Part shown: piece by piece, positions 18,862 to 34,534 of the stretch
Position numbering within the stretch: position 1 is the stretch's first letter
Layout: the number at the start of each line of letters is the position of its first letter
Source of the DNA: Cryobacterium sp.
Lineage (GTDB): Bacteria; Actinomycetota; Actinomycetes; Actinomycetales; Microbacteriaceae
Length of the DNA: 34,534 bases
Direction of reading: 5' to 3'
NCBI GenBank assembly: GCA_019639015.1
Contig: JAHBSS010000016.1
Location: 1 to 34,534, forward strand
Made by a program: the position numbers and the translations under genes
The notes under the pieces: generated by a model
What the model was told of the DNA's origin: nothing
Database searches by the model: none
What the model saw: only the letters and a program-made list of their open reading frames with translations

Positions 18862-19580
18862 GCGGTTTCCTTGATTCTTGTGTGCTTGCTTCGTGCAGTC
18901 TCGTGTTCTAAGAACGCATCCAGGGTTGCGAGTCGGTGATTGCGTGCGGCCAATTCGATTTCAAGAGGGTCGGCATCCGTTTCGATGAGATGGAGGATTT
19001 TCTCGTGCTCCGCGACGGACTGTTTTGCGCGGCCAGGTACGAAGCTGAAAATTGATTCGCGAAGAACCCCGAGCCTTGCCCAGCCTCTGTCGACGAGTTC
19101 GCGAATGTGCGGATTCGGACATGGTTCGAACAGGATCGTATGAAACTCTCGATTTAGTGAAGTGAAGGCCAGCGGATCGAAATGGTCGAGCGTTTCAGAA
19201 AGCTCAAGGTTCACCTCTCGTGCCCGCGCAATGTCAGTCTTACTGAGCAAGGGGGCGGATGCACAAGTCGCCCAACCCTCCACGAGGCTAAGTGTTTGCA
19301 TTGTGATTTCGTACTCTCGCGGGTTCACCATTGTCACTCTTGCCCCGACGTTGCGTTCGAATTCGACGAGTCCTTCGGCTTCGAGGCGTCTGATAGCTTC
19401 GCGAACCGGAACGACGCTCACATCAAGATCGGCCGCTATGGTTGCGAGCACCAGTCGGTAACCGGGGCTGTAGCGACCACTGTTGATCTCTCCGCGAAGG
19501 TAGTCGTATGCGAGCTGTGACTTGCTCTTACTCGGTGACTCTGAGTCCTGAGTCTCTGCGCTTAGTGTTTCAGTAGCCAC
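18858..19580 (-). CDS. GntR-family regulator, FCD subfamily, of the hpa operon
   Basis: A 240-residue transcription factor. The winged helix-turn-helix spans about residues 20-88: SQLAYDYLRGEINSGRYSPGY, then AADLDVSVVPVREAIRRLEAEGLVEF, which is the GntR signature. The C-terminal FCD ligand-binding domain is all-helical and contains the metal-site-like residues NREFHTILF, SVAEHEKILHLIE and ARNHRLATLD. These histidines usually bind a metal that holds a carboxylate ligand. The GTG start at 19580 overlaps the end of the FAH-RraA gene by 19 bases and its stop overlaps the DapA-like gene (ATGA). It probably senses a dicarboxylate-type pathway intermediate and controls its own operon; the target site is not identified with confidence. 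Confidence 0.92.
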   Translation of the reverse strand: MATETLSAETQDSESPSKSKSQLAYDYLRGEINSGRYSPGYRLVLATIAADLDVSVVPVREAIRRLEAEGLVEFERNVGARVTMVNPREYEITMQTLSLVEGWATCASAPLLSKTDIARAREVNLELSETLDHFDPLAFTSLNREFHTILFEPCPNPHIRELVDRGWARLGVLRESIFSFVPGRAKQSVAEHEKILHLIETDADPLEIELAARNHRLATLDAFLEHETARSKHTRIKETA

Positions 19581-20992
19581 TCTTGGTACCTCCGCTTCCA
19601 GTCCTCATTCATTGGGTAAAGACCATCGACACTAGCGCCTTCAGCGACCTGCTCCGAGATGAATTGTTCTTGCCGCTCTTGTTCGATTGCGGCATCGACA
19701 ACTTCCTCGACGAGGTTCGGTGGGATAACGATCACACCGTCCGCATCGCCGACTATGACGTCGCCCGGTTGAACCGCTGTGCCGCCGCAGGCGATGGTTT
19801 CGTCTGTTGCCCAAGGCACATGGCGGCGCCCGAGTACCGCAGGGTGGGGCCCGGCGTGATAAGTGGGAATCCCGAGTTCAGTTACGGCATCCAAGTCACG
19901 GATGCCACCGTCAGTGACAATTCCGGCGGCGCCTTTGACCTGCGCACGCAATGCCAAAATGTCACCGACGGTCCCTGTTCCTTTTTCACCGCGGGCATCG
20001 ATCACTAGCACTTCACCTGGGCCTAACGAATCGAATGCGCGCTTTTGAGCGTTGAATCCGCCTCCGTGGCTTTCGAATAAGTCTTCTCTGCCGGGAATGA
20101 ATCGTAATGTTCGGGTAGTTCCAATCAACTTTGATTGCGGTTGAGTCGAGTGAACTCCGTCAATTGATACGGTGTTGAGTCCACGCTTGCGCAATTGCGA
20201 ACTCAAAGTGGCTGTGCCTACCGAACTGAGCTTTTCGATCAACTCGGGTTGCAGCGCGCTGCTCGGGGTTCGACCGTATGCTTCGTCGCGCTGGGTATCA
20301 TCCACTTTTGGTTTGGCTCCAAAGTCCGCGAATGGCACGTTTCCCTGAGTCACCGTTGTCAGCAACTTGCCGGTGCTTTCATTGCCGGAACTAACTTCGA
20401 CCTCCACGGTGTCGCCTGGTCTAACAACGGTTGAACCGGCAGGGGTTCCAGTCAAAATTAGGTCGCCGACTTCGAGGGTTATCAATTGCGAAAGGTCCGC
20501 AACTAGTTGAGCGAAATCGAACAACAGGGTCGCAGAACTGTCATCCTGAACTAACTCACCGTTGACCCAAGTTCGAACTTGTAGCTGCTTGGGGTCAAGC
20601 TTGGTTGCATCCAATACGGCTGGACCAACCGGAGTGAAACCGTCGCCACCTTTCGACCTGAGGTTCGATCCCTTGTCCGCGTAGCGAAGATCGTAAATGC
20701 CGAAGTCGTTGGCTGCGGTTACTCCCGAAACCGACGACCAGGCATTCTTTGGGTCCACTCGCCGAGTGGTTTTTCCGATCACTAATGCGATTTCGCCTTC
20801 GAAGGCGAGCAATTCACAACCGAGGGGTAGTTCGATAGTTGAGCCTGTCGTGGAAAGCGAGGACGCAGGCTTCAAGAAATAGCTTGGCAAACTAGGAGTT
20901 CGACCACGTTGTGCTGCCCGGCTGGGATAGTTGAGGTGAACCGCGATGACTTTGCCGGGGCGGGGTTCTTTAGGATTGTAATCAGTAGTCAA
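19562..20992 (-). CDS. FAH-domain isomerase/hydratase fused to an RraA-type aldolase/decarboxylase domain
   Basis: Two-domain protein of 476 residues. Residues about 10-215 form a fumarylacetoacetate hydrolase-type domain with metal ligands E65, E67 (FEGEIALVIG) and D96 (AANDFGIYD), then KGGDGFTPVGP and GDLILTGTPAG, like HpaG/HpcE. Residues about 245-476 form an RraA-like domain. It carries the D-X20-R-D motif of class II 4-hydroxy-4-methyl-2-oxoglutarate aldolases: D344, then exactly twenty residues, then R365-D366. E. coli HpaG instead consists of two FAH repeats. The fusion probably handles isomerisation of 5-carboxymethyl-2-hydroxymuconate plus a decarboxylation or pyruvate-aldol step. 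The TTG start at 20992 is chosen for AAAGGAG six bases upstream and a promoter just before it; an open extension to 21064 lacks these. Confidence 0.88.
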   Translation of the reverse strand: MTTDYNPKEPRPGKVIAVHLNYPSRAAQRGRTPSLPSYFLKPASSLSTTGSTIELPLGCELLAFEGEIALVIGKTTRRVDPKNAWSSVSGVTAANDFGIYDLRYADKGSNLRSKGGDGFTPVGPAVLDATKLDPKQLQVRTWVNGELVQDDSSATLLFDFAQLVADLSQLITLEVGDLILTGTPAGSTVVRPGDTVEVEVSSGNESTGKLLTTVTQGNVPFADFGAKPKVDDTQRDEAYGRTPSSALQPELIEKLSSVGTATLSSQLRKRGLNTVSIDGVHSTQPQSKLIGTTRTLRFIPGREDLFESHGGGFNAQKRAFDSLGPGEVLVIDARGEKGTGTVGDILALRAQVKGAAGIVTDGGIRDLDAVTELGIPTYHAGPHPAVLGRRHVPWATDETIACGGTAVQPGDVIVGDADGVIVIPPNLVEEVVDAAIEQERQEQFISEQVAEGASVDGLYPMNEDWKRRYQEWLLKH

Positions 20993-20998
20993 CGCACT

Positions 20999-21005
20999 CT
21001 CCTTT
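20999..21005 (-). promoter_or_regulatory. Ribosome binding site for the FAH-RraA gene
   Basis: AAAGGAG on the minus strand, six bases upstream of the TTG at 20992. It fixes this unusual TTG as the start. Confidence 0.75.
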
Positions 21006-21015
21006 GATGTACAAA

Positions 21016-21043
21016 ATAATATACGATTTTCAGAATTTGTCGA
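21016..21043 (-). promoter_or_regulatory. Probable promoter of the minus-strand hpa operon
   Basis: On the minus strand, TCGACA (21043-21038) is a five-of-six match to the -35 box and TATTAT (21021-21016) a good -10 box, with a 16-base spacer. The expected start of transcription lies near 21008, just before the ribosome binding site of the FAH-RraA gene, giving a very short leader. An imperfect AT-rich palindrome (GTACAAAATAATATAC, 21010-21025 on the plus strand) overlaps the -10 box and is a candidate regulator site. Confidence 0.55.
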
Positions 21044-21067
21044 TGCCTGACCTTCCACCGGCACGAT

Positions 21068-22470: not shown

Positions 22471-23925
22471 ATGGGCGCCAGAACTGGTCAACAGTATTTA
22501 GACAAGATCAACTCGATGCGGCCGCACGTCAACATTGACGGTGTAGTTGTAAGCGAGAACATCGCTGAGCATCCGGCATTCAAGAATGTCGCGCGCACCT
22601 ACGCGAAATTATTCGATCTTCAACACGATCCTAAGTACAAAGACAAACTCACCTACAAGTCACCAACAACCGGCGATCCGGTAAATGTGTCGTTCTTGCA
22701 ACCGCGCACTCTTGAAGACCTCGAGCGCCGACGCGCTGGAATTCAAGTTTGGGCAGAATATTCAAACGGTTTCTTGGGTCGTACCGGCGACTACATGAAC
22801 TCGTCGCTGACAGCGCTTTCGTCGGCGAAGAAGTGGTTCGAGCAGGCGGACCCGGTGTTTGGGGAGCGGATAGAAGCGTATTACGAGCAAGCGAGGGAGA
22901 ACGACTGGCTTGCAACGCACACGTTGATTCCACCGCAAGTGAACCGGTCGGTTTCCGGTAGCGAACAACTCGGTGGTCAGTTAGCAGCTCGAATCGTTGA
23001 AGAACGACCGGACGGAATAGTGATTCACGGCGCCAGGATGCTAGCGACCGTCGCACCTATAGCCGACGAACTCCTGGTGTTCCCGTCAACGGTACTTCGC
23101 GGTACACCGGAAGACGCACCGTACTCATACGCGTTTGCGATCCAGAACGATGCTCCTGGACTCAAATACCTCTGCCGTAGTTCGCTTCACAACGGCGGCT
23201 CGCACTTTGATGAACCGCTCGCAAGTCGCTACGAAGAGATGGATGCGGTCGTGGCATTCGACCAAGTATTCGTACCGAACGAGCGCATCTTCATGCTCGG
23301 TCATCCGGAACTTTGCAACAACTTCTATACCGATACCGGCGCGACAGCGCTCATGACCCAACAAGTCGTAACGCGAACCATCGCCAAGAGCGAATTCTTT
23401 CTCGGGCTTGCAACCGAGATTTCCGAAGCAATCGGAATCGATGGGTTCCTTCACATTCAAGAAGCGCTCGCGGAACTAGTGGTTGACGTCGAGATCGGCA
23501 AAGCGCTCATGCGTTCGGCCGAGGTTGACGCAAAGCTAAATGAGTGGGGCATGATGACCCCGCACTGGCCAACCTTGAATGCGGCAAGAAACTGGTACCC
23601 GAAGATCTCGCAGCGGTTCCCGCAAATCATTCGAATGTTTTGTGCGAGTGGCTTAATGGCACTGCCAAGCGAAGCTGACCTTGCAAGTGACGCACTCGCC
23701 GATATCGAGTTGTACCTACAAGGAAAGTCGCTCACCGGACCGGAGCGCGTGAAGTTGTTCCGTCTTGCATACGATGCGTCAATCACTGGGTTCTCTTCAA
23801 GGCAAGCACTGTATGAGTATTTCTTCTTCGGTGACCCGGTGCGCATGGCCGGGGCACTTGTGAGTAGCTATGACAAGCAGCCGTTACAACAACGGATTCG
23901 CGATTTCCTAGAACGCCAGGACTGA
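22471..23925 (+). CDS. hpaB: 4-hydroxyphenylacetate 3-monooxygenase, oxygenase component
   Basis: FADH2-dependent hydroxylase that converts 4-hydroxyphenylacetate to 3,4-dihydroxyphenylacetate. The protein has 484 residues with an acyl-CoA-dehydrogenase-like fold. It opens with GARTGQQYLDKINSMRP and contains RRAGIQVWAEYSNGFLGRTG, the THTLIPPQVNRS segment, DGIVIHGARMLATVAPIADE and AVVAFDQVFVPNERIFMLG, all typical of the HpaB family. GAGGAG (22461-22466) precedes the ATG by four bases. The two-component partner hpaC lies immediately upstream. A chlorophenol or other phenol monooxygenase role is possible for the family, but hpaD and hpaE next door support 4-hydroxyphenylacetate. Confidence 0.95.
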   Translation: MGARTGQQYLDKINSMRPHVNIDGVVVSENIAEHPAFKNVARTYAKLFDLQHDPKYKDKLTYKSPTTGDPVNVSFLQPRTLEDLERRRAGIQVWAEYSNGFLGRTGDYMNSSLTALSSAKKWFEQADPVFGERIEAYYEQARENDWLATHTLIPPQVNRSVSGSEQLGGQLAARIVEERPDGIVIHGARMLATVAPIADELLVFPSTVLRGTPEDAPYSYAFAIQNDAPGLKYLCRSSLHNGGSHFDEPLASRYEEMDAVVAFDQVFVPNERIFMLGHPELCNNFYTDTGATALMTQQVVTRTIAKSEFFLGLATEISEAIGIDGFLHIQEALAELVVDVEIGKALMRSAEVDAKLNEWGMMTPHWPTLNAARNWYPKISQRFPQIIRMFCASGLMALPSEADLASDALADIELYLQGKSLTGPERVKLFRLAYDASITGFSSRQALYEYFFFGDPVRMAGALVSSYDKQPLQQRIRDFLERQD

Positions 23926-31063: not shown

Positions 31064-31087
31064 TCTGGCAAACGAATTAGTGCCAGA
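31064..31087. terminator. Possible bidirectional hairpin between convergent genes
   Basis: TCTGGCA (31064-31070) pairs with TGCCAGA (31081-31087) around a ten-base loop. It sits between the stop of the second permease and the end of the oppositely oriented membrane protein gene, overlapping the latter's last codons. There is no strong T-run on either strand, so it is a weak terminator candidate. Confidence 0.3.
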
Positions 31088-31430
31088 GCACTGCGATCAC
31101 GATATTGGCAACTGTTAGAGCGCCAATAAGCCAAATCACCCACGATAGAACTTCAGTCTTCTTGCGGAACAAGAACACGAGCACAGTGATGATCAGTACA
31201 ATCGCAAGTTTCACGGAGTACTTGGTCATGTCCAGGTCCCAATGCATTCCTTCAGCAAGCCCGACCAACGCGATCCCTGTGACGAGTTGAGTTAGTGCTC
31301 CGTGGATCATCGCCGAAACGATCTTCGCTTTGCCCGCTATGGCGTCCTTGATCTGAACCAAGAAGCCGCCCAAAAGGGAAGCAAGTCCGATGAAGTGAAG
31401 GATGAGCAGGATGCTGAAGGTGATTTCCAT
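31077..31430 (-). CDS. Small four-helix membrane protein of unknown function
   Basis: A 117-residue protein that is almost entirely hydrophobic. Helices lie at about 5-24, 37-60, 70-90 and 94-115, joined by short charged loops (QIKDAIAGKAK; EGMHWDLDMTKYS; FRKKTEV). H12 in LLILHFIGLASLLGGF and H43 lie inside helices and resemble cofactor- or metal-binding positions seen in small quinone- or haem-related membrane proteins, but I cannot name a family with confidence. The ATG is preceded by AGGATAGG. It is the last gene of the mevalonate operon and five bases after a predicted micro-ORF; its link to isoprenoid synthesis is positional only. Confidence 0.8.
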   Translation of the reverse strand: MEITFSILLILHFIGLASLLGGFLVQIKDAIAGKAKIVSAMIHGALTQLVTGIALVGLAEGMHWDLDMTKYSVKLAIVLIITVLVFLFRKKTEVLSWVIWLIGALTVANIVIAVLWH

Positions 31431-31434
31431 GCAC

Positions 31435-31533
31435 CTATCCTTTCACGAAGACCGTGTATACCCATCCTGCGGCAAGCACTAGTGAGGCGATTGCGAAGAG
31501 CGAAAGGACGATGCGCGAAAGATTGAATCTCAC
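31435..31533 (-). CDS. Possible 32-residue single-helix membrane protein
   Basis: A GTG at 31533 overlaps the stop of the HMGR-mevalonate kinase gene (GTGA) and opens 32 codons ending at TAG 31437-31435. The product would have a basic N-terminus (MRFNLSR), a hydrophobic helix (IVLSLFAIASLVLAAGWVYTVF in outline) and a basic end (VKG). This fits a small inserted membrane protein. The next gene starts four bases after its stop, so it fills the gap between two coupled genes exactly. Without it the 99-base space would be the only sizeable gap in this operon. Coding status is inferred and needs conservation evidence. Confidence 0.5.
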   Translation of the reverse strand: MRFNLSRIVLSLFAIASLVLAAGWVYTVFVKG

Positions 31534-33821
31534 CCTGCCACCATACCGTTTGCTGAGGTACGAATCTCGGTTAAGTAGGTCTGGAAGCCCGCGGTGTCGA
31601 GTGTTGCTGCAACATCCTTAATCCGGTCAGGGTGAGCGATCGCTATCATCGCACCGCCGCCACCGCCACCGGTAAGTTTGGCTCCTAGAGCTCCGGATCT
31701 TCTGGCCAGGTCAACGAGCATCTCAAGTTCAGGACTCGAAACTTGCAAGGCATTCAGGAGTCCGTGATTTAGATTCATGGTTTCGCCCAGCACTGCCAGG
31801 TCACCTTTTCGAAACGCTTCAACACCCGTCATTACGAGTCCGTCAATCTCCTTGAAGATCGCCTCGTAATGTTGCGGGTTCTTTTTCCAACCCTCATGAA
31901 CCCGTCCAACAGTTTCAGCGGTTAGAGAGCGCACTCCCGTTAGACCAACGACAACTGGAATTGGTCTAGACGTGCTGAGATGGGTGATCTCGTTTCCGTT
32001 CGCGGTGCGTCGGAACAAAATGGTTTCGCCGAACGTTGCGACGGTGTTGTCGATACCCGAGGGTGATCCGTGAACGAGTCCTTCGCATTCGTAGGCCAAG
32101 TCAGACACTTGCTGATTTGTGAGCTCCAAATTGTAACTTTGCGCAAGTGCACGAATAACTGAAACCGCGAGTGCTGCCGACGCCCCAAGGCCGCTTGCTC
32201 TAGGCAGTTCGGGGAACACTTCCACTCTTGCCAACTCGTTGGCAAGCCCCAATCGGTCTGCGATGAGGGCAGCAACTTTTGTTGCTAGAGCCGCTCCGGC
32301 AGGATTGTGTGCAGCGGGATCCGAATCCCACCCTGAAATTACGAACTCGCGCTGTTTTGTAGGCCTGGAGACTTCTGCTCTGATTGAGAGGTTTAGGGGC
32401 GCGGCGATTGCGTGATATCCGTAAACCACCGAGTGCTCGCCTAGCAGAATGATCTTGCCGTAACCGAGATTAGCTGCGGTATTAGGTCTTGAGTTCGTGA
32501 TCGGCTTTAGATCAATAGTTCCAGTTGCGGTAGCACCACCCTTGAGGGACTCGATAATCTTTTTCGCCTTCCAAACTTTGATGTCACCGCTGGCAACTAA
32601 CAGTTCAACCACTTCTTCGAATTCTTCCTCATTGGCACCGGCTGCGACAGCCACACTCCGCGCATGTAGTCGCATGTGCCCTGGCTGGATGCCTTCCGTT
32701 GAAAGCGCCTTCAACGCTGCAAGATTCTGTGCGAGCCCGACTGCTGCCATAATTTCGGCGAGCTCTTTCGCTTTCGACGTGCCGATAATCGATTGTGAAA
32801 GCCGGATGGCCGGATTTGATTGGACTTGACCGCCGACCGTGCCAACCTTCAATGGAACTTCGATTTCGCCAACCAAGTTCCCGGCCGCATCCGAAGTCCA
32901 CTTTGTGAGCGGCTGATACGTTCCTGTTCTAGCCGCAAATGCATGCGCTGCAGATTCAATTGCTCGCCAATCGTTTCCCGTAGCAATCGCGACGGCATCA
33001 ATGCCATTCATGATTCCTTTGTTGTGAGTCGTCGCTCGGTACACGTCTAACTCGGCAAACTCGCCAGCAAGAATAATCCCATCGCGAACCGCTACGCCGT
33101 CGAAATGCTCAGTTGCCAATTGGTCGGTTGGAACAACTGCTCGCGCTTTCACAATGGCGCGGTCAGTCAAATTCGAGAGGATCCGCAAAAACACGCGACC
33201 GCCGCTGAGTTCGGCCAATAGGGGTCCGATTGCTTCACACATCGTGTTTACTAAGTTCGCGCCCATTGCGTCCCTAGTGTCGACCACCAAGTGCACAACT
33301 AACAATTCTCCGTTGTTTCGGGTCTTGCCACGAAGGTGCACTTCAACGTCGGTTGCTCCGCCGCCTCGCTTGACCATGTTCGGATGGGTACTGTTTGCGA
33401 GATCGAGAATCTGCTGTCGTGCATTCAAGATTAGTGTTCGAGCCTCGTTCGGATTTGGGATGTCCAAAATTTGAACTTGACCGATCAGAAGTGGCTCATC
33501 GGATGTGCTTGTAAAGCCCCCTGATTTTCGCACGATGAGTGCGGCGGAACTTACTGCTGCGATGATTGAAGGCTCTTCAACCACCATCGGTACGACGTGA
33601 TCCCGGCCGTTGATTGTGAAATTTAGTCCAAGGCCGAGCGGCATCGAGAATACGCCAATAACGTTTTCGGTAAGTCGATCAGCTTTAAGCGTGGTCAGGA
33701 TGTACGAACCGGTACTTAGTGCTTCGTAATCCTTTTCATCAATGATTCCGCGGCTACGGAGTTCCTTCAGTCGCTCTTCAGGGCTGAGTTGATAAAACCT
33801 GGGTATTCGGGAATCCGTCAT
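31530..33821 (-). CDS. Class II HMG-CoA reductase fused to mevalonate kinase
   Basis: A single 763-residue frame encodes two consecutive mevalonate-pathway enzymes. Residues 1-440 form a class II (Pseudomonas mevalonii-type) HMG-CoA reductase: catalytic E83 (VVEEPS), the DAMGANLVN nucleotide motif at 184-192, K268 (THNKGIMNG), D284 (ATGNDWRA) and the GHMRLHA histidine segment at 381-387. Residues about 448-763 form a GHMP-family mevalonate kinase: K455 in GYGKIILLGEHSVVYG, motif 2 GLGASAA (544-550), the catalytic D591 in GSPSGIDNT and the glycine motif KLTGGGGGG at 715-723. All catalytic residues are kept. The linker (about 427-447) is short. It would turn HMG-CoA into mevalonate 5-phosphate in one protein. 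Its ATG overlaps the phosphomevalonate kinase stop. Confidence 0.95.
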   Translation of the reverse strand: MTDSRIPRFYQLSPEERLKELRSRGIIDEKDYEALSTGSYILTTLKADRLTENVIGVFSMPLGLGLNFTINGRDHVVPMVVEEPSIIAAVSSAALIVRKSGGFTSTSDEPLLIGQVQILDIPNPNEARTLILNARQQILDLANSTHPNMVKRGGGATDVEVHLRGKTRNNGELLVVHLVVDTRDAMGANLVNTMCEAIGPLLAELSGGRVFLRILSNLTDRAIVKARAVVPTDQLATEHFDGVAVRDGIILAGEFAELDVYRATTHNKGIMNGIDAVAIATGNDWRAIESAAHAFAARTGTYQPLTKWTSDAAGNLVGEIEVPLKVGTVGGQVQSNPAIRLSQSIIGTSKAKELAEIMAAVGLAQNLAALKALSTEGIQPGHMRLHARSVAVAAGANEEEFEEVVELLVASGDIKVWKAKKIIESLKGGATATGTIDLKPITNSRPNTAANLGYGKIILLGEHSVVYGYHAIAAPLNLSIRAEVSRPTKQREFVISGWDSDPAAHNPAGAALATKVAALIADRLGLANELARVEVFPELPRASGLGASAALAVSVIRALAQSYNLELTNQQVSDLAYECEGLVHGSPSGIDNTVATFGETILFRRTANGNEITHLSTSRPIPVVVGLTGVRSLTAETVGRVHEGWKKNPQHYEAIFKEIDGLVMTGVEAFRKGDLAVLGETMNLNHGLLNALQVSSPELEMLVDLARRSGALGAKLTGGGGGGAMIAIAHPDRIKDVAATLDTAGFQTYLTEIRTSANGMVAG

Positions 33822-34534
33822 TTTGACTCGACTCTCGCCCCTTCTCTGCTTAGGGGAATTGGAATGAATTGAACTCCTGCGGATGTGAGCGCGGTTTTTA
33901 CGTTATCGGAATTTGAGCGTGTGGCAAACACGAGTCCGAGGTCGTCGCCACCTGCCCCACTGGTTTTGAATACCGCTCCAGCTTCAGCCGCGAGAGCGCG
34001 CAATCTTGAATGTTCGTAGGTCACTATCCCAACCTTCGAGTCGGCACCCAGTTTCTCAAGTGCGAGAAAATACCGGTCCGCCAAGTTCATGAAGCTGTCT
34101 GCTCTCGAAATGGACTCGGTGGTCAGGTGAGAAAGCTCAATCAACGTATCGATATCCGCCTGGAACGTTTCAGGTTGTGACTGTTCGAATCGTTCAATTT
34201 CGGCGATGAAGTTTGCGGTTTCACTTCCGTCCCCCGTTGCGACCGCGAGAATTTCTAGATCGCTTGGAAGTGTCGCGGTTTGTCGTCCGTCTTGTGAAAT
34301 GCTGATTGCTCCGCCGAAAGTGGATGCCGCAACATCTCCTCCGCTCCCACCACCTTGAGCTTTTCGGTGGGCGCTCTTGGCTAAGTTGAAACGCTCGTCC
34401 GCAGTTAAATTCAAATTAAGGATCTCGCTAATAGCCAAGGTGAGTACCGCAGAAAGCGCGGCGCTTGATCCGAGCCCGAGTTTGTTAGCACGCCGGTTGC
34501 TCGAACGCGACGCATAAAGTTGCGAACTGTCAAT
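33818..34534 (-). CDS. mvaK2: Phosphomevalonate kinase, C-terminal 238 residues (gene continues past right edge)
   Basis: GHMP kinase that makes mevalonate diphosphate from mevalonate 5-phosphate. The frame is open to the last base of the window. The first visible residues include the ATP-binding motif 2 KLGLGSSAALSAV (encoded around 34448-34483), which proves that the gene begins outside the window and not at the internal TTG 34438. Further marks are AHRKAQGGGSGGDVAASTFGG, a GSGxDVA motif with the catalytic Asp typical of phosphomevalonate kinase, and KTSGAGGDDLGLVFA, the C-terminal glycine motif. It overlaps the following HMGR-kinase gene by ATGA. Diphosphomevalonate decarboxylase and isomerase genes would be expected just beyond the right edge. 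Confidence 0.93.
   Translation of the reverse strand: MDSSQLYASRSSNRRANKLGLGSSAALSAVLTLAISEILNLNLTADERFNLAKSAHRKAQGGGSGGDVAASTFGGAISISQDGRQTATLPSDLEILAVATGDGSETANFIAEIERFEQSQPETFQADIDTLIELSHLTTESISRADSFMNLADRYFLALEKLGADSKVGIVTYEHSRLRALAAEAGAVFKTSGAGGDDLGLVFATRSNSDNVKTALTSAGVQFIPIPLSREGARVESK

Follow-up and report, generated by a model that had tools for sequence, protein, structure and literature searches.

The window, that is, the whole stretch of 34,534 nucleotides of Cryobacterium sp. DNA analysed here, carries on its minus strand at positions 31530 to 33821 a single open reading frame of 763 amino acids, beginning with ATG, in which an HMG-CoA reductase (HMGR) is fused to a mevalonate kinase. 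Judged from its sequence, the product is very probably a bifunctional biosynthetic HMGR–mevalonate kinase encoded in a mevalonate cassette that has moved horizontally. The N-terminal class II reductase is predicted to make mevalonate from HMG-CoA and the C-terminal kinase to phosphorylate that mevalonate, while a flexible linker following the reductase's C-terminal flap would hold the two together, and the fusion enzyme would feed isopentenyl diphosphate synthesis. No enzyme of isoprenoid synthesis is better known as a control point than HMG-CoA reductase, and in this protein the next enzyme of the pathway is welded onto it.

A sequence-only reading of the window had proposed such a one-frame fusion at these positions, and the proposal was borne out, as both parts scored above the cut-offs of their family models and five of seven congeners were found to carry the same arrangement. 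Its strand needed correction, since the frame runs on the minus strand and the plus strand is full of stops across 31530 to 33821. The reductase part comprises residues 1–427 (32541 to 33821, minus strand). Pfam HMG-CoA_red matches it over residues 15–387 (350.8 bits), the NCBIfam HMGR model TIGR00532 scores 402.4 bits against a cut-off of 259.95, and residues 2–428 align with 6dio, a solved class II HMGR. Compared to the single-domain class II HMGRs 1qax and 6dio, the fusion chain continues into a kinase. With TIGR00532 over its cut-off and the catalytic Glu, Lys, Asp and His present, this part can be assigned to the class II reductases; we take E83, K268 and D284 to be the catalytic Glu, Lys and Asp and H386 to be the catalytic histidine.

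A linker of about residues 428–452 (32466 to 32540, minus strand) leads to the mevalonate kinase part, residues 453–763 plus the stop (31530 to 32465, minus strand). This part is matched by GHMP_kinases_N at residues 512–596 and GHMP_kinases_C at 668–741 and by the NCBIfam mevalonate kinase model TIGR00549 at residues 455–727 (233.3 bits, cut-off 163.05). Residues 440–736 align with the solved mevalonate kinase 2hfs, and 6mde is another solved mevalonate kinase matched. The landmarks of a GHMP mevalonate kinase are present, namely K456, GLGASAA at 544–550, D591 and a glycine-rich stretch at 718–723, among which the glycine-rich loop, K456 and D591 presumably serve as the kinase loop and the catalytic Lys and Asp. 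The catalytic residues had already been named from the sequence, and E83, K268, D284 and D591 stand as named; the kinase lysine is K456 rather than K455, and H386 is an addition to the residues named there. E83, K268, D284, H386 and D591 are identical in all 56 full-length fused frames compared, and K456, G544, L545, G546 and D591 are invariant across 39 aligned fusions. From these sequences we infer that both activities of the fusion are live. None of the 41 matched solved sequences had a best stretch spanning both parts, and none of the 19 matching NCBIfam models spanned both. A chance open frame was considered as well and is untenable in view of the two full domain matches.

A sequencing or assembly error that merged two adjacent genes would yield a similar frame, and eight Bacillaceae loci and one Myxococcaceae MAG do keep both genes adjacent yet separate. 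However, the single frame recurs in five of the seven congeners (G002, G003, G005, G006 and G007, at 76–84% identity) and in 45 of the best 80 public loci, and the probability of an artefact is negligible; with the same frame found in independent genomes, an assembly artefact was ruled out. A false join at residues 427–447, the place singled out for a frame check by the sequence-only reading, is excluded because those five congeners cross it in an uninterrupted frame. Among the other two congener genomes, G001 gave no match, and in G004 two weak matches were confined to the kinase part.

At least 587 confirmed relatives were found in public genome contigs, and the best 80 were analysed. They comprise 45 full single-frame fusions, two fused frames ending at a contig edge (L072 and L078), nine loci with neighbouring separate reductase and kinase genes (the eight Bacillaceae and the Myxococcaceae MAG) and 24 with the reductase only; because these 80 are the top-scoring relatives, fusions are over-represented among them. 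By the record titles of these best 80 of at least 587 loci, the fusion occurs in at least five phyla; names under which fused loci are recorded are, among others, Cryobacterium, Salinisphaera, Dyella, Nevskia, Woeseiaceae, Nakamurella, Calditrichota, Acidobacteria and Planctomycetota. The idea that it is peculiar to actinobacteria was thus not upheld. In draws of genomes, the fusion was found in 7 of 199 in the window's family (G000, which is the window's genome, G003, G005, G007, G094, G167 and G099, where two matches share a single 825-aa frame; G002 and G006 lie outside this draw), 3 of 396 in the phylum (G000, G309 and G331) and 9 of 369 in the Gammaproteobacteria, the class of the Dyella genome G620, with G620 included and G840 giving a partial match. 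One candidate picked by frame length, G171, proved to be HMGR only.

The sequence-only reading had also raised the prospect that the fusion is already widespread and described. It is widespread and present in many public genomes, yet none of the open-access titles and abstract openings covered named an HMGR–mevalonate kinase fusion. The fusion of pathway steps is in itself a known kind. E. faecalis mvaE encodes thiolase and HmgR, according to the review PMC13001223. MvaE of enterococci resembles the present protein in that it joins a bacterial HMG-CoA reductase to a second enzyme of its pathway. The partner is different: in MvaE it is acetoacetyl-CoA thiolase, two steps upstream, whereas here it is mevalonate kinase, the next enzyme, attached at the reductase C-terminus. 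Pfam found no thiolase domain in the 763 residues, in agreement with the distinction from MvaE drawn from the sequence.

The fusion is also distinct from the unfused mevalonate clusters of the window's family or order. These clusters serve the same pathway, with six gene families in G008, G012 and G015 and, as far as visible, five in G049 and four in G039, but HMGR and mevalonate kinase are separate genes in them. By NCBIfam, the G012 cluster encodes mevalonate kinase, decarboxylase, phosphomevalonate kinase, type 2 isomerase, HMGR and HMG-CoA synthase; its HMGR matches TIGR00533 (NADPH type) at 294.4 bits, below the cut-off of 441.8, and not TIGR00532.

The surroundings of the fusion bear on its role. 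Upstream on the minus strand, at 33818 to 34534, lies a phosphomevalonate-kinase-like gene whose 5′ part is cut by the contig end and whose TGA stop overlaps the ATG of the fusion by four bases (ATGA). Its best NCBIfam match is TIGR01220 at 83 bits, under the cut-off of 165.7. The window's contig, 34534 long, ends inside the mevalonate operon; in the genome as a whole, the fusion lies on contig C8, the phosphomevalonate-kinase-like gene is divided between two contig ends, and contig C16 has at its end an HMG-CoA-synthase-like gene, a decarboxylase and the first part of a phosphomevalonate-kinase-like gene. On C16, the diphosphomevalonate decarboxylase (MVD) scores above its NCBIfam cut-off and the HMG-CoA-synthase-like protein below. 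As the phosphomevalonate-kinase-like and HMG-CoA-synthase-like proteins of the cassette score under the curated NCBIfam cut-offs, their two steps are assigned from homology and gene neighbourhood. In G007, the HMG-CoA-synthase-like gene is divergent from the decarboxylase, the phosphomevalonate-kinase-like gene and the fusion. Directly downstream of the fusion, the minus strand encodes at 31077 to 31430 a 117-aa protein, hydrophobic by eye, with no Pfam match at 0.001.

With these neighbours in view, a catabolic role can be weighed, in which mevalonate would support growth through its oxidation to HMG-CoA by the reductase, the kinase being a salvage side-activity. TIGR00532, the best reductase model in NCBIfam, has a title that says 'degradative'. 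Reductase-type matches occur in 37 plasmid records; many of the 15 among the matches listed are annotated 'degradative', and 4 of these 15 have a dctP transporter feature under the match. Furthermore, G002 has the fusion, and an HMG-CoA synthase was not found there at 1e-20. However, 46 of the 56 fused loci are preceded by over 2.5 kb of sequence, and 39 of these 46 show a decarboxylase gene and a phosphomevalonate-kinase-like gene at most 4 kb upstream on the same strand. In addition, an HMG-CoA-synthase-like gene is present in eight of nine fusion-bearing genomes tested, and Dxr, IspH and IspG were not found in five of the six fusion-bearing genomes of the genus. Against this body of evidence a catabolic function is very unlikely, and a biosynthetic one is preferred. 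The exceptions among the 46 are L035, with both genes further upstream, L047, with both downstream, L061, whose kinase gene is upstream but whose decarboxylase gene lies elsewhere, and L046, L051, L057 and L067, where neither was found in the stretch of sequence covered. Plasmid carriage of the fusion was considered separately and rejected, as the 37 plasmid records match at 1e-50 and none covers 80% of the query.

Trees of the two domains speak to the origin of the biosynthetic fusion. In the HMGR tree (57 fused and 40 solo rows), all 57 fused rows lie on one side of a branch with support 100/100; in the kinase tree (57 fused and 30 solo rows), they lie on one side of a branch with support 98/78, and a quick kinase tree with 36 solo rows gave the fused side a support of 87. 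Left out of both trees were the near-duplicate fused rows L004, L005, L130, L033, L053 and L055, the contig-edge loci L072 and L078, L134 (a duplicate of L038) and L138. Kinase solo rows had to exceed 75 bits and cover more than 240 query residues; L160, L162, L163 and L166 were unused as genes already in, L168, L170, L171 and L172 because they matched the kinase part weakly or not at all, and the careful kinase tree was built without the long or distant solo rows L173, L153, L144, L154, L169 and L167. Pairwise identities of HMGR and kinase over the 57 fusions correlate at r = 0.86, with none of 999 Mantel permutations as high. Because both domain trees group the fusions and the identities correlate, the simplest reading of these sequences, in trees with no inferred root and moderate kinase support, would be one fusion event followed by joint inheritance. 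Several independent fusions are required by neither tree, the moderate kinase support applying here as well.

In both trees a branch sets apart the ten fusions of the window's family, those of Cryobacterium among them (HMGR 100/98, kinase 100/99), and a further branch does so for these ten together with L032 (a Salinisphaera MAG), G830 and G938 (HMGR 100/97, kinase 100/100). Because Cryobacterium rows nest within the window's family, this family is taken to be Microbacteriaceae. A birth of the fusion within actinobacteria is not favoured, because the family's fusions have rows of other phyla around them and the kinases of the unfused clusters of the window's family or order (G008, G012, G015, G049 and G039) fall outside the fused rows. 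Two actinobacterial fusions, the Nakamurella MAG L039 and G309, are placed elsewhere in the tree, which suggests further transfers or mis-binning. Collectively, the fusion appears to be old and of single origin and to have moved across bacterial phyla. The cassette probably entered the window's family horizontally, either from Salinisphaera-type bacteria or from a donor shared with them.

Unfused pairs of the same two genes could illustrate a possible precursor of the fusion. The Bacillaceae tandems (L080–L086 and L088) and the Myxococcaceae MAG L073 share the order of reductase then kinase, but have two separate frames or genes, and neither tree places them among the fused rows. Among the Bacillaceae, an ATGA overlap was seen at all three reductase–kinase junctions read. 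In L073 (3467–5752), the reductase and kinase are in the same frame but separated by a stop codon, and a GTG comes three bases beyond it; this arrangement looks like a pre-fusion state.

The arrival of the cassette can be set against the MEP route, for which three of the seven genes, Dxr, IspH and IspG, were tested. MEP is usual in the window's family, in line with what had been said from the sequence, Dxr being found in 182 of the 199 genomes drawn at 1e-30; in this draw Dxr was absent in 5 of 7 fusion genomes vs 12 of 192 others. The sequence-only reading had also suggested looking for missing MEP genes in the window's genome, and Dxr, IspH and IspG were not found there (G000, 87.87% complete), nor in G003, G005, G006 and G007; all three are present in G001, G002 and G004. 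The genus thus has three states: the fusion without the three MEP genes (G000 and four congeners), MEP only (G001 and G004) and both (G002). Beyond the genus, 38 of the 45 genomes behind fused public loci show no Dxr at 1e-20 and 7 have it, in a set whose MAGs may be incomplete or mis-binned; the remaining one of the 46 genomes behind public loci, the tandem-gene genome L073, has no Dxr at 1e-20 either. All four tested Cryobacterium genomes behind public loci have Dxr. Since Dxr and the fusion occur together in G002, G167, G099 and those 7 of 45 public fusion genomes, the fusion is not always paired with loss of MEP.

G002 (89% complete) is the mixed case of the genus. The fusion, the phosphomevalonate-kinase-like gene and the decarboxylase are present, and the G007 HMG-CoA synthase matches nothing there at 1e-20; a synthase of a distant type could escape this threshold, because the two types match only at about 1e-19. 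At its locus (L116, 8525–14357), the next gene follows directly after the decarboxylase, where relatives carry the HMG-CoA synthase. G002 may be losing the cassette, which is possibly half-lost, or may feed it otherwise; leucine breakdown yields HMG-CoA. On the gene content of these genomes, the cassette, once acquired, would then have replaced MEP in part of the window's genus. Mixing of both isoprenoid routes within other genera has already been reported, according to the review PMC13001223.

How the two enzymes benefit from being joined was approached through the linker. Across 39 aligned fusions, mean conservation is 0.18 in the linker, compared to 0.72 at residues 15–387, 0.68 at 388–427 and 0.62 at 453–763; the low value for the linker against 0.62–0.72 for the domains fits selection on the domains rather than on the joint. 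An AlphaFold2 monomer prediction from 39 fused sequences gave a mean pLDDT of 84.6 and a pTM of 0.57, with both domains mostly confident and pLDDT below 50 at residues 428–435 and 441–448 in the linker, 499–506 in the kinase and 757–763 at the end. The spacing from H386 to the kinase glycine ranges from 21 to 131 residues over the fusions and is 68 in the window (G455). In two proteobacterial MAG fusions (L070, 5968–8127, and L071, 2292–4367), the reductase flap past the catalytic histidine is nearly absent, and 25 and 21 residues, respectively, lead to the kinase glycine vs 68 in the window. The variable length, low conservation and low pLDDT of the linker fit a flexible tether between the two enzymes, and the predicted model lends no support to a tunnel or a fixed docking.

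According to the sequence-only reading, free mevalonate would be handed straight on to the kinase by virtue of the fusion. In such a channelling machine, the kinase would sit near the reductase active site, perhaps across an oligomer, and take up mevalonate directly, thereby pulling the reversible reductase reaction forward. The reductase is active as an oligomer. The joint comes after the reductase's C-terminal flap, near H386, and the fusion has been retained over at least five phyla, with no solo reductase inside the fused side of the 97-row HMGR tree. However, the wide range of the H386-to-kinase spacing, the poorly conserved linker and, in the monomer model, the pTM of 0.57 and the linker stretches under pLDDT 50 make channelling unlikely, and the direct passage of mevalonate is left unsupported. 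The gain from the fusion is most likely equal dosage together with proximity, with less loss of mevalonate, rather than a tunnel. A broader reading combines these themes: an undescribed, single-origin fusion would be the core of a mobile cassette that crosses phyla, displaces MEP and has been caught mid-replacement in one genus, and the kinase, carried on the moving flap of the reductase, would couple mevalonate formation to phosphorylation. Taken as a whole, this combination is doubtful.

The fusion matters in three respects. First, it may provide a ready-made two-step enzyme for metabolic engineering. Second, it can serve as a one-gene marker to track the mevalonate cassette between phyla. 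Third, a genus with MEP-only, mixed and fusion-only species allows pathway replacement to be studied directly.

The window holds another domain fusion, on the minus strand at 19562 to 21064, where a FAA hydrolase domain is joined to an RraA-like domain. This protein matches NCBIfam PRK12764 over residues 25–496 above the cut-off, and this fusion is therefore an established family. An HpaB at 22471 to 23925 suggests a region for 4-hydroxyphenylacetate degradation.
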